This document shows, piece after piece, positions 3,066-28,122 of a DNA stretch of 43,070 bases. Below the pieces are notes generated by a model. That model worked only from the letters and a program-made list of their open reading frames with translations. It did not search any database and was not told the origin of the DNA. The stretch's first letter is position 1, and every line of letters starts with the position of its first letter. Both the position numbers and the translations under genes were made by a program. The DNA is from Deltaproteobacteria bacterium CG03_land_8_20_14_0_80_45_14 (lineage in GTDB: Bacteria > Desulfobacterota > BSN033 > UBA1163): positions 1 to 43,070 of the forward strand of contig PEUO01000073.1 of the NCBI GenBank assembly GCA_002780715.1. The letters are read 5' to 3'.

Positions 3066-3938
3066 ATGAACGAGCGCACTGAAATCTATGAACGTGAGAA
3101 ACTCTACGAAGAGGTCTGGAAGGAGCCTGTGCTGGTCGTCGCCAAGCGCTACCGCGTTTCCAACGTCGCCTTAGCAAAGGCCTGTCGGAAACTCGCTGTG
3201 CCCCTTCCGCCACGCGGATACTGGGCCAGAATCCGAGCCGGACAGAAGGCACTCCTGCGTCTGCCACTGCCGCTAACTTATGAGAATCCGGCTATCCAAA
3301 CCACCCGTCGGGGACCGGTAAGAACAGGCGCTGCACCCGATAAGGCCACCAACGGGAAAGGTGGAACCAGCCCCGCAAATTCCACCAGGGTACCTGAGAC
3401 GTCCAATAGCCCCTCCAGTTCGGAAGACAAGACAGCAGATAAGAACCGAACCCGGAGGAAGACCTCGCCGAAGGAATTCCCGGAATACCTTTATTGCACC
3501 ATCGACGGCTGGCAGCGTACATTTCGATTCGGGGTCAACCGTTTCCGGCCGATCAAAGGACTCCAAGATGAGGAAGAAGCGTACGACGAATGGGATCATC
3601 TACAGGTTTTTGCAACCGTCCGATATCACCACAAGCCTCGTAAGGGAAGAAAGAGAACCGGTCAACACGTCGAGCTATGGGTTCACCCGACACACGTTCC
3701 AAGAACAGACTGGCGGGATGATCCAGAGGCCGTCGGCGGCGTGTGGACGGAGCAGGGACGATTGTTCGGGACCCTTTCCATTCCGGCGGACGCGTTCTAT
3801 TCACTCTTCCCGTGCCTGGTCTCAAACCACTTCAAAGAACTCGAACTCAGGATCCTGCGGATGCATTACCGACAGGGGGACATCGATGGAATCAGATTCG
3901 CTCCGAAAGAGACGCCGATGGAAGACCTGCTCGAATAG
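3066..3938 (+). CDS. Hypothetical accessory protein
   Basis: 290 aa ORF in a GC-richer segment; N-terminus (YEEVWKEPVLVVAKRYRVSNVALAKACRKLAVPLPPRGYWARIRAG) resembles a family often seen near mobile elements. Confidence 0.6.
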   Translation: MNERTEIYEREKLYEEVWKEPVLVVAKRYRVSNVALAKACRKLAVPLPPRGYWARIRAGQKALLRLPLPLTYENPAIQTTRRGPVRTGAAPDKATNGKGGTSPANSTRVPETSNSPSSSEDKTADKNRTRRKTSPKEFPEYLYCTIDGWQRTFRFGVNRFRPIKGLQDEEEAYDEWDHLQVFATVRYHHKPRKGRKRTGQHVELWVHPTHVPRTDWRDDPEAVGGVWTEQGRLFGTLSIPADAFYSLFPCLVSNHFKELELRILRMHYRQGDIDGIRFAPKETPMEDLLE

Positions 3939-6128: not shown

Positions 6129-6484
6129 TGGTGGAGGCGGCGGGAATCGAACCCGCGTCCGGAAACCTTCCGACAGAACATCTACATACATAGCCTGTGT
6201 TTTAAATTCGCCCTTCCAAACTCCCACAGGCAGGATCTCAGAAGGACTATCTTATGGAGATTCGCCCCTCACCCTATAAGCGTCGGGGAGAGACTATCCT
6301 GTTTTTCTGACATCCCGTCCTGCCCTACAGGAAAGAACAGGGGGGACGCCTAGCTGCGCTTAGGCAGCCAGGGCATAATCGTAGTTGGTTGCGATTATGT
6401 TTATTCCCATTTGTTTTACGAGCCAATGGGACCTCGGTATGCAGCCCTGACGTCAACGATCCCCGTCGAACCCTTTTCGCCCCC
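6129..6484 (-). ncRNA. ssrA: tmRNA (SsrA), predicted tag ATNYDYALAA
   Basis: 5' GGGGGCGAAAAGGGUUCGACGGGGAUC and 3' GGACGCGGGUUCGAUUCCCGCCGCCUCCACCA; 7-bp acceptor pairing; AUAAUC-GCA ACC AAC UAC GAU UAU GCC CUG GCU GCC UAA. Confidence 0.95.
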
Positions 6485-10015: not shown

Positions 10016-10217
10016 AGTGTATAAGTAAAAAAAGGGGATTTTCGAAGGGGACCATAAGCCGAGTTCTGTCATCCCGATCCCGCTTTTCAGTGGGAATCGG
10101 GAGGATGGCCATTTATCTAGGGCCCTGATTGCTCAGGGTCTCAAGCGACCTCACCCGTCCCGCCTTTGTCCCGATGCTATTGCCTCGGGACAAATTTGAA
10201 TGGGCTTTTCTTATCTC

Positions 10218-10252
10218 CCCTGTGGAGTAGGCGTAGCCGCCACTCCACAGGG
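10218..10252. repeat. Palindromic repeat within rnpB, copy 1 (inverted orientation)
   Basis: CCCTGTGGAGTAGGCGTAGCCGCCACTCCACAGGG. Confidence 0.9.
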
Positions 10253-10352
10253 AGGAAGCGGAACCTATTTGGTCTTGCTCCGGGTGGGGTTTACCTAGCT
10301 ACCCCAATCGCTCAGGGTACTGGTGAGCCCTTGCCTCGCCTTTTCACCCTTA

Positions 10353-10387
10353 CCCTGTGGAGTGGCGGCTACGCCTACTCCACAGGG
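10353..10387. repeat. Palindromic repeat within rnpB, copy 2 (P12 position)
   Basis: CCCTGTGGAGTGGCGGCTACGCCTACTCCACAGGG. Confidence 0.9.
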
Positions 10388-10415
10388 CGGTATGTTTTCT
10401 GTGGCACTTTCCTTA

Positions 10416-10452
10416 CCCCCGTGAAGTGGCGGCTGCGCCTACTTCACAGGGG
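10416..10452. repeat. Palindromic repeat within rnpB, copy 3 (P9 position)
   Basis: CCCCCGTGAAGTGGCGGCTGCGCCTACTTCACAGGGG. Confidence 0.9.
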
Positions 10453-10605
10453 CAGTCCGTGTTACGGACCACCCTGCCCTTTGGAGCTCGGACTTTCCTC
10501 TCCTCCTCATTTCCCGCTTCGCGTGATATCAGGAGGAGCGACCATCTGCTCCCCTTCGACTCCCCTCCTTTCCTGAGATTTCTGGAAAACTGAAGAAATC
10601 TCTGA

Positions 10606-11103
10606 TTAATCAAGAGAGCTTATCGTAGTCTTTTTGAGCTCTCTTCCTTTTTCCTTTACGATCCTCCTCTGGATCGCTTGATTCGCCAAACGGTCTGCTT
10701 CTTTATTCTCTTCCCTTGGAATGGATTCAATCTCAAAGAATGAAAATGTTTTTAAATTCTGGAGCGCTGTTTTGTGGAGGGCCTTTAAATTCAAATCCTT
10801 CACGCGATAGACCCCTTTAATTTGTCTTTCGACCAATTCTGAATCCGTGAAGATTTGGAGGGTGTTACCCCCCAATCGCTTTGCTTCTCTCAGCCCTAAA
10901 AGAAGGGCCCAGTATTCTGCCTGATTATTCGTCTTGTGGCCGAGATATCGGCTTACCTCCGAAATTTTTTTCCCTTCTCCATTCGTAATCCAAATCCCTG
11001 CCCCTGCACTCCCCGGATTTCCCCTGGAGGCTCCATCAATATAAATGACCAATCGATCTTCTGGTCCCGAGGATTTCATTTCCTGCTTCGATCTCCATCC
11101 CAA
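10606..11103 (-). CDS. rnhA: Ribonuclease HI family protein
   Basis: IYIDGASRGNPGSAGAGIWI, NNQAEYWALLLGL, FTDSELVERQI, REENKEADRLANQAI. Confidence 0.93.
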   Translation of the reverse strand: MGWRSKQEMKSSGPEDRLVIYIDGASRGNPGSAGAGIWITNGEGKKISEVSRYLGHKTNNQAEYWALLLGLREAKRLGGNTLQIFTDSELVERQIKGVYRVKDLNLKALHKTALQNLKTFSFFEIESIPREENKEADRLANQAIQRRIVKEKGRELKKTTISSLD

Positions 11104-25635: not shown

Positions 25636-28122
25636 ATGAAGTTCGGCAATTATCTTCGTCATTGTAGACAAGCTGCTGGGCTGTCTCTTCGAGAATTGGC
25701 AGAGCTTGGTCAAATCAATCCAGCTTATCTTTCTCGTGTGGAACGTGGAATCGTTCCACCTTCGGACGCACTAATACAGTCGGTCGCCGATGCATTGAAG
25801 ATCAAGTCTGAGAGCCTATTTCTCCTGGCTGGGCGTGTGCCTGCAAATTGGCAGAAGGCTATATCTTACTCACCTTCCCGAATTGCCGAGACTTTCCGCA
25901 GCGTTCTCGATAGCTATGTTGCCGAACCGAAGAGCCCCTACGGTAGAACCCTACTTTCCTTTGGAGGGGTCCGAGCTATCGAAGATCCTGCTTTTCCATT
26001 TGAATATTTTAGTGACATCGCAGAACTTGAGAGTTGGCGAAAGGAGATCTACCGTCCCATTTACCACATCCACAAGTGGTGGGCCCAACGGCTCGGTTCA
26101 GTCTTCCGGGCTATCATAATAGGCGCTTTTGCTCCCAAGGGATCAAATGTTTTTGAGATGTTCTATCAGCCTGTGAGATTGACAGGAGCTGTTATCTTCG
26201 ACCCCTTCATGGGAAGCGGTACCACCATCGGCGAAGCTCTCAAACTTGGCGCTCGCTCTATAGGCCGTGATATCAATCCCGTTTCCCATTTTATTGTGAA
26301 AAACGCCCTGGGTCTCCATCCCCGTAAAAAAATCATTGAGATCTTTCGAGGCATTGAACGAGATGTTGCCCCTGCTATTCGTCGCCTTTATCAAGCCCGT
26401 CTCCCGGAGGGAGGGATGGCAGATGCTCTCTATTATTTTTGGGTAAAGGTTGTTCAGTGCCCAGAGTGTGAACGCATGGTCGACCTTTTCTCATCCTACA
26501 TATTTTCACAGCATGCCTACCCTGCTCGTAATCCAGAGGCGCATGCACTTTGCTCCAATTGTGGAGCTATCAATAAGATTCGTTACGACACTGAACTTTA
26601 TAAATGCTCGGCCTGTGGCCTGGCCCAGAATCCACAGGTTGGACCTGCAAAGGGTTTAAATGCAGTTTGCCCAGGTTGTGGACACAGCTTCCCAATTGCA
26701 AAAACTGTTCAGAAACATAAAGAACCACCGGCGCACCGCCTGTATGCTAAAATGATCATACGGCCAAATGGCTCAAAGGAATATCTCCTAATTGATGATT
26801 ATGATCTCCACCTATATCAAGAGGCCTCTCAAACTCTCAGGAAACGGAAGAACCCCTATCCTGTTGTCTCAATTGAAGCCGGTTATAATACCAATCAAGT
26901 CCTCAATTACTGCTACCATTACTGGCATCAAATGTTCAATGACCGTCAACTTCTTTGCTTAAGCCTTCTTGCAGATCGCATTCGAAAAATCCCCGACAGG
27001 AGGTTGCGGGATCTTTTTGCTTGCCTCTTCTCTGGCACTCTTGAATTCAACAATATGTTTACCTCGTTTAAAGGGGAAGGCACGGGCGCTGTCCGCCACA
27101 TGTTCTCCCATCACATCCTCAAGCCAGAGCGAACACCTTTGGAGGCAAACCTTTGGGGGACGCCTAAGAGTTCTGGCGCTTTTTCAACACTCTTTGAAAG
27201 TCGCCTCCTTAGGGCTCTCGATTACTGTGAAAACCCTTTTGAAATCGGTTCCACATACAAAAACGGAAAGGCTATTGGGGAGAAGGTATATGGTCTCTCT
27301 TCTCCCTTGGGCATTGACATTGTGGAGACTTTTGATGAGTTCCAAGGAGGTAAGGATTTATACCTCTACTGCGGTGATTCTGCAAAAACCGACCTTTCAA
27401 TAGAAAGCGTAGACGCAGTTGTTACCGATCCGCCTTTTTTTGACAATGTCCATTATTCACAGCTTGCAGATTTCTTTTATGTCTGGCAGCGCCATGTCCT
27501 TGGAGCGAATGGCAACCATAACCCCCAAAGCACCCGTTCTGAGGAAGAGGTTCAACAAAGCGATCCAACGATCTTCACCGATCGCCTTTATGGTGTATGG
27601 AAGGAATGCAATCGGGTTCTCCGACGTGAGGGGCTCCTTATATTCACCTACCACCATTCTCGAAATGAAGGCTGGCGTTCAGTGTTAGAAGCGATTGTCA
27701 GGGCAGATTTTGCAATCGTTGCGACCCATCCGATCAAGGCAGAAATGTCGGTGGCCAAGCCAAAGTTTCAGGCCAAGGAACCCATTGACCTGGATATAAT
27801 TATTGTTTGCCGAAAACGTGATACCACTTTAACTGAATCGTCAGATTCCAAAAGGATCATTAAAAACGCAACCCAAGAAGCTGCCGAGCAGGTCGCTCGC
27901 CTCAATGGATCAGGCAGGTCTTTGAGTCGGAACGATGTTTATGTAATATTAATGTCACAGATCATCAAGCGGTTGTCTTGGCAGCCGTCTCTCCATGAAA
28001 GTCTAAGCTTCCTCGACTCAAACCATACATCGATTGAAAGAGCGATTAGCGAGCTACATGGGGGCCAAAGAATATCCGAGCGTCCTCCGAGCAGGCAATC
28101 AAAACAACTCTCCCTCTGGTGA
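25636..28122 (+). CDS. XRE-family regulator fused to a DNA methyltransferase with zinc-ribbon insert (DUF1156-like organisation)
   Basis: N-terminal HTH (LAELGQINPAYLSRVERGIVPPSDALI), DPFMGSGTTIGEALKLGARSIGRDINPVS, four CxxC pairs, VVTDPPFFDNVHYSQLADFFYVW. Confidence 0.88.
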   Translation: MKFGNYLRHCRQAAGLSLRELAELGQINPAYLSRVERGIVPPSDALIQSVADALKIKSESLFLLAGRVPANWQKAISYSPSRIAETFRSVLDSYVAEPKSPYGRTLLSFGGVRAIEDPAFPFEYFSDIAELESWRKEIYRPIYHIHKWWAQRLGSVFRAIIIGAFAPKGSNVFEMFYQPVRLTGAVIFDPFMGSGTTIGEALKLGARSIGRDINPVSHFIVKNALGLHPRKKIIEIFRGIERDVAPAIRRLYQARLPEGGMADALYYFWVKVVQCPECERMVDLFSSYIFSQHAYPARNPEAHALCSNCGAINKIRYDTELYKCSACGLAQNPQVGPAKGLNAVCPGCGHSFPIAKTVQKHKEPPAHRLYAKMIIRPNGSKEYLLIDDYDLHLYQEASQTLRKRKNPYPVVSIEAGYNTNQVLNYCYHYWHQMFNDRQLLCLSLLADRIRKIPDRRLRDLFACLFSGTLEFNNMFTSFKGEGTGAVRHMFSHHILKPERTPLEANLWGTPKSSGAFSTLFESRLLRALDYCENPFEIGSTYKNGKAIGEKVYGLSSPLGIDIVETFDEFQGGKDLYLYCGDSAKTDLSIESVDAVVTDPPFFDNVHYSQLADFFYVWQRHVLGANGNHNPQSTRSEEEVQQSDPTIFTDRLYGVWKECNRVLRREGLLIFTYHHSRNEGWRSVLEAIVRADFAIVATHPIKAEMSVAKPKFQAKEPIDLDIIIVCRKRDTTLTESSDSKRIIKNATQEAAEQVARLNGSGRSLSRNDVYVILMSQIIKRLSWQPSLHESLSFLDSNHTSIERAISELHGGQRISERPPSRQSKQLSLW

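Follow-up and report, generated by a model that had tools for sequence, protein, structure and literature searches.

The RNase P RNA gene (rnpB) of Deltaproteobacteria bacterium CG03_land_8_20_14_0_80_45_14 (G000, 3.24 Mb) contains three hairpins that, judged by sequence comparison, are very probably copies of a small, non-autonomous, dispersed palindromic repeat, which was copied into the peripheral helices P9, P12, and P16/P17 and displaced the native hairpins there. The copies in rnpB are homologous to copies dispersed elsewhere in the same genome, and their presence differs among related genomes from helix to helix. The gene is part of a 43,070-nt stretch of DNA (contig PEUO01000073.1, positions 1–43,070), the whole of which was analysed and is referred to as the window.

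The rnpB gene was identified as class A RNase P RNA with the Rfam model RF00010 (RNaseP_bact_a), which matched over its complete length (model positions 1–367; gathering score 100; E = 5.9e-85) and only once in the whole genome. The core is aligned throughout and intact, and with 520 nt the gene is long, partly because of the three hairpins (Table 1). A first-pass annotation of the window, made from the letters alone, had described an intact core and three palindromes of about 35 nt in P9-, P12-, and P16/P17-type peripheral helices; a repeat search returned the same coordinates, and the Rfam structure placed each palindrome in the helix proposed for it, with helix names that we take to apply by comparison with the E. 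coli RNA. Copies 1 and 2 are reverse complements of each other (35/35), and positions 10,417–10,451 of copy 3 match either of them at 31 of 35 positions, with one added outer C-G pair extending the copy at both ends. Two finer details of the annotation also hold: the bulged base, located on the 5' side of copies 2 and 3 in RNA sense, confirms that copy 1 has the opposite orientation, and copy 3 has the compensatory pair GUGAAGU/ACUUCAC. Each copy folds into at least 11 bp, one bulge, 4 bp, and a tetraloop, with a hairpin energy of about −31 to −32 kcal/mol as compared with −14.6 kcal/mol for the plain P12 of congener G002. The hairpin of copy 1 sits 5' of a GCCC strand, presumably one side of P6. 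A search of the window with the half-site (≤3 mismatches) gave five matches against 0.39 expected, all five of them inside rnpB.

Table 1. Location of rnpB and its three repeat copies in the window. Bit scores of the copies are from a covariance model built from dispersed copies of other organisms.
Feature	Position	Strand	Evidence
rnpB, RNase P RNA class A, single copy	10039..10558	-	RF00010, 263.4 bits
Repeat copy 1, additional P16/P17 hairpin with its interior flipped compared with the other two copies	10218..10252	-	Repeat search, 36.4 bits, fold
Repeat copy 2, helix P12	10353..10387	-	Repeat search, 42.4 bits, Rfam alignment position
Repeat copy 3, helix P9, compensated pair	10416..10452	-	Repeat search, 24.5 bits, Rfam alignment position

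An RNase H-like gene (PF13456/PF00075; positions 10,606–11,103, minus strand) is located immediately upstream of rnpB. This rnhA-rnpB neighbourhood is conserved in the window and in loci L062, L063, L065, L066, L068–L071, L073–L075, L302, and L043, and an RNase H C-terminal signature 100–255 nt upstream of a conserved rnpB motif was found in most family members and one distant family. The window also encodes tmRNA (positions 6,129–6,484, minus strand), some 3.5 kb away from rnpB, and the repeat model found zero copies in the tmRNA gene.

Outside rnpB, the repeat is dispersed in the G000 genome. A two-armed pattern that permits paired changes matched nine times, including two matches in rnpB, with zero matches for the reversed control pattern and zero in the genomes of four congeners. 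A covariance model of the repeat extended the set to twelve loci, namely the three in rnpB and nine others (C12, C47, C61, C83, C115, C142, C147, C231, and C249), i.e., many homologous copies in unrelated places of one genome. Because this model contained the rnpB copies, a second one was built exclusively from the dispersed copies of other organisms. It recovered all three copies of the window, and across 57 loci all of its matches at E ≤ 0.1 lay in an rnpB, except a borderline one at window position 26,607; E-values of such custom-built models are rough. The copies C83 and C231 match the rnpB copies at 32 of 35 positions, comprising both arms and interior. Most copies are situated between genes. 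The one clear case in a protein gene is C12, which is translated in frame within an ATP-grasp gene (L081:754–1971, minus strand; element at 1501–1532) and at which gaps open in the alignment to a solved relative. The copy in C47 is nested in a GATTCTTCG...CAGAATGACA hairpin repeat, and those in C12, C115, C142, and C147 have a GGGGGAGGGCT...GGTGGGGG context, the uninterrupted form of which is present in L273. The C249 match, at 27 bits, is weak; it lies in a VanZ-like gene whose VanZ domain has no extra length, and may be due to chance. C122 of the same genome has two copies of about 97 nt (L223:1336–1432 and 3435–3531), approximately 2.1 kb apart, with CCCTGTGGAGT ends and a long interior, which may represent an extended version of the element. 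A single 520-nt gene holds three of the twelve genomic copies, where 0.002 are expected; the clustering in rnpB is thus not random placement and may reflect either targeting or retention.

Presence of the repeat varies by helix and by species among relatives, most of which are represented by metagenome assemblies. The rpoB tree of the genus has the topology ((G004,G001),(G002,(G003,G000))), in which the pairing of G003 and G000 is only moderately supported. P9 contains the repeat in G000 and other hairpins in G002 and G003. P12 contains it in G000 and G003 and is plain in G002; the contig of G001 breaks inside P12, with the first bases of a copy at its end. At P16/P17, G000 has a copy and G003 a decayed one, G001 lacks a hairpin, and the hairpin of G002 is plain. 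G002 therefore has no copy in any of the three helices, and rnpB was not found in G004. A single gain in P12 within the genus with subsequent loss in G002 is possible. We consider it extremely improbable that the hairpins are an assembly artefact of the metagenome bin: repeats do break contigs at this place, as at the contig end in G001, but the independently assembled G003 has both the P12 copy and the decayed one at P16/P17, the sequence of copy 3 is not that of the others, and the RNA is complete, its core intact.

In the sister genus, P9 of G011 contains a copy whose interior has the opposite orientation to that of the P9 copy of G000, and P12 of G011 is plain; G009, G014, and G015 have a short form of the repeat in P12. 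In G003 and G011 the covariance model detected only the rnpB copy genome-wide, and the repeat is not visibly dispersed there. A P12 copy sharing the GGCGUAGCCGCC interior was found in G288, from outside the family, and five members of the family of G288 have other P12 hairpins. Copies inside P12 with the outer stem kept were found in G094 and G059, and in G103 the repeat ends flank a long P12. Pattern screens of 396 genomes from the phylum of the window organism identified six with a P12 copy, and in 398 genomes of the Bacteroidota, the phylum of G107, no rnpB had one; the sole match of the P12 pattern in the latter (G632) was dropped, as it is not in an rnpB. The motif occurred in eight of 63 P12 helices, as compared with a mean of 0.02 in shuffled sequences and none of 2000 shuffles reaching eight, in a sample that leans to relatives and whose related genomes are not independent. 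Judging from the relatives, such repeats have entered, or been swapped into, the outer arms of rnpB several times. Similar sequences could in principle also be ancient or have arisen by convergence if selection at P9, P12, and P17 favoured stable, GC-rich hairpins, since the native P12 and P9 helices of relatives also start and end with CC...GG. However, the copies share non-palindromic details (bulged base, UAGC loop, and orientation) and an identity of 35/35, homologues with the same interior are dispersed in the genome, and the frequency of the motif in P12 far exceeds that in shuffles, which makes this explanation highly improbable.

The repeat is not confined to the Deltaproteobacteria. 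Its ends are approximately YTYRCCCTGTGRARTA...TAYTYCACAGGGYRAR (CCCTGTGRART...AYTYCACAGGG) and enclose a short and variable interior. The pattern CCCTGTGRARTN{3,30}AYTYCACAGGG, run against a single genome of each GTDB species, matched at least 118 stretches with the same ends; by our own estimate, about a dozen matches would arise by chance in the whole collection. The matches listed derived from Bacteroidota, Deltaproteobacteria, Cloacimonadota, Marinimicrobia, Scalindua, Nitrospirae, Ignavibacteria, and others. Each of the two variable stem positions is paired in 114 of 117 copies among the matches listed, with a pattern that allowed any purine with any pyrimidine, i.e., the arms are kept self-complementary by paired changes. 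Also among the matches listed, the four bases outside the stem are mostly TTCA, TTTA, or CTTG on the left and TAAA, TGAA, CAGG, or CAAG on the right, and the varying interiors often form one or two mini-hairpins. No earlier report of the repeat or of its invasion of bacterial rnpB was found in the open-access literature, which likewise contained nothing on point regarding palindromes in rnpB; a literature search with the letters of the repeat returned no bacterial repeat among the best matches. The repeat thus appears to be undescribed in the open-access literature, and an earlier description elsewhere is possible.

A second repeat family occupies the same helix in other bacteria. P12 of two Phaeodactylibacter MAGs (G107 and G108) holds CCGAAGCTTTAGCGAAGGCGG, which has 41 and 24 copies in the respective genomes (≤2 mismatches; none for the control). 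A close variant is present in P12 of one relative, G012, with few other copies in that genome. Further repeat-like inserts were observed among the relatives of the window organism. The rnpB of G014 (L073) has a P16/P17 insert of about 130 nt with inverted ends GAGGCTGTGTCGCAAT...ATTGCGACACAGCCTC and further hairpins within, which is absent in its close relatives G009 and G010. P12 is long and repeat-like in G008 (L067) and G010 (L069), of the GAGTTAAGAGTT type in the latter, and is a short palindrome in G009, which is near-identical to G010. With a second repeat family and other repeat-like inserts, the peripheral sites of rnpB look like general entry points for hairpin-forming repeats and not for one element only.

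The first-pass annotation had offered intragenic gene conversion as an alternative, in which, if acting alone, one helix acquired the sequence once and passed it to the other two with no dispersed element involved. Conversion would fit the concentration of copies in one gene and the identity of the P12 and P16/P17 copies over 35 nt, given that G000 and G003 differ from each other at four positions in their orthologous P12 copies (31/35). As the sole cause it is nevertheless unlikely and largely refuted by the copies outside rnpB: C83 and C231 have the same interior, copies are present in other genomes, G011 has the repeat in P9 only and other lineages in P12 only, and the first arrival would be left unexplained. 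Conversion probably also acted after arrival; the P12 and P16/P17 copies may have been homogenised recently, or one made from the other, because they are identical while the orthologous P12 copies have diverged.

We thus favour copying of the dispersed repeat into the peripheral helices of rnpB, where it would have replaced native hairpins. Copies would persist at these sites because a well-paired hairpin preserves the fold of the ribozyme, and selection on rnpB may keep them paired while copies between genes decay. The copying step could be transposition, with the enzyme supplied in trans, or a swap between hairpins via template switching or gene conversion at a shared CCC...GGG base. The copies in G000 begin and end where the native helix does, flush at the CCC/GGG base and with no leftover native hairpin, and at P9 and P12 they are followed by UAAGG, which is native rnpB sequence and also resembles the outer bases of the repeat. 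These junctions favour, as far as sequence can indicate, a swap between hairpins that have short ends in common, and less so a clean insertion into a loop; the copies in G094 and G059, where the outer stem is retained, rather resemble insertions. No transposase travelling with the copies was found in the loci examined around them, no target-site duplication is visible in their flanks, and the loci examined have no unpaired repeat ends around a transposase. With flush replacement, no transposase, and no target duplication, we give template switching or gene conversion the same likelihood as transposition. A Y1/RAYT transposase was rejected as a neighbour, since, of the ten Y1 matches in the genome, those examined have no two-armed copy nearby; the C83 copy shares a contig with one Y1 gene, more than 6 kb away. 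Half-sites bounding a larger autonomous element were also considered, with no convincing case. Among the GTDB matches listed, no shared neighbour gene was apparent, the largest recurrent clusters being few and mostly distant from the repeat. The proposal of the first-pass annotation that a small palindromic element had spread into rnpB with its structure preserved is thus supported by the occurrence of the sequence at about nine further loci and in many genomes of other phyla and by its patchy presence in relatives, with an opposite orientation at P9 in one of them. The outcome that the annotation had named as refuting, hairpins common to all relatives and diverging gradually with no occurrence elsewhere, was observed on neither count. 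Mobility driven by an enzyme is only one possibility, as neither an adjoining transposase nor target duplications were found and the native hairpins were replaced flush. A bolder reading, which we consider possible but less likely than not, is that bacterial rnpB offers landing sites in its peripheral helices, chiefly P12, at which dispersed palindromes of several families replace whole hairpins time and again, hairpin for hairpin and with no need for a dedicated transposase, and that the cross-phylum family spreads in this way.

Bacterial RNase P RNAs gain and lose peripheral helices, but the origin of a new helix is rarely observed. In this case the donor is identified as a dispersed palindrome, a tree of congeners locates the helices that received it, and at least two repeat families entered one and the same helix in separate lineages, so that the idea of selfish hairpins as a source of RNA structure becomes directly testable. 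Several known systems are comparable in part. Short tandem direct repeats (STRRs) are dispersed in genomes and also occur inside cyanobacterial rnpB, but are tandem direct repeats, unlike the palindromes that replace a helix here. REPs, which typically lie outside genes, and RAYT-mobilised REPINs are likewise short, dispersed, non-autonomous palindromes with many copies; in contrast, no copy described here adjoins the examined Y1 genes or has a GTAG-like foot. Like MITEs, the repeat is non-autonomous with inverted ends, and two 97-nt copies with the same ends are located on C122, but no parent transposase or target-site duplication was found in the loci examined. Rickettsia palindromic elements are 100–150 nt long and mostly known from protein genes of Rickettsia. 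By description, they resemble the present repeat in being dispersed palindromes that genes can carry, the one clear case here being the in-frame copy of the ATP-grasp gene. They differ from the present repeat in that it is 35–50 nt long and occurs in other phyla. Double-hairpin elements of fungal mitochondria are short, potentially mobile, and located between genes and inside rnl and rns (PMC10085805). Likened by description only, they share with the present repeat that hairpin elements occur both between genes and inside structured RNA genes; they differ in being mitochondrial, GC-rich, composed of two hairpins, whereas the copies here are single hairpins, and reported in rRNA genes and not in bacterial rnpB. 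These mitochondrial elements and those of Rickettsia appear, by analogy, to be nearest in concept. Palindromic repeats in a structured RNA gene are thus of a known kind; what we rate as new is that here they replace individual helices of a bacterial ribozyme.
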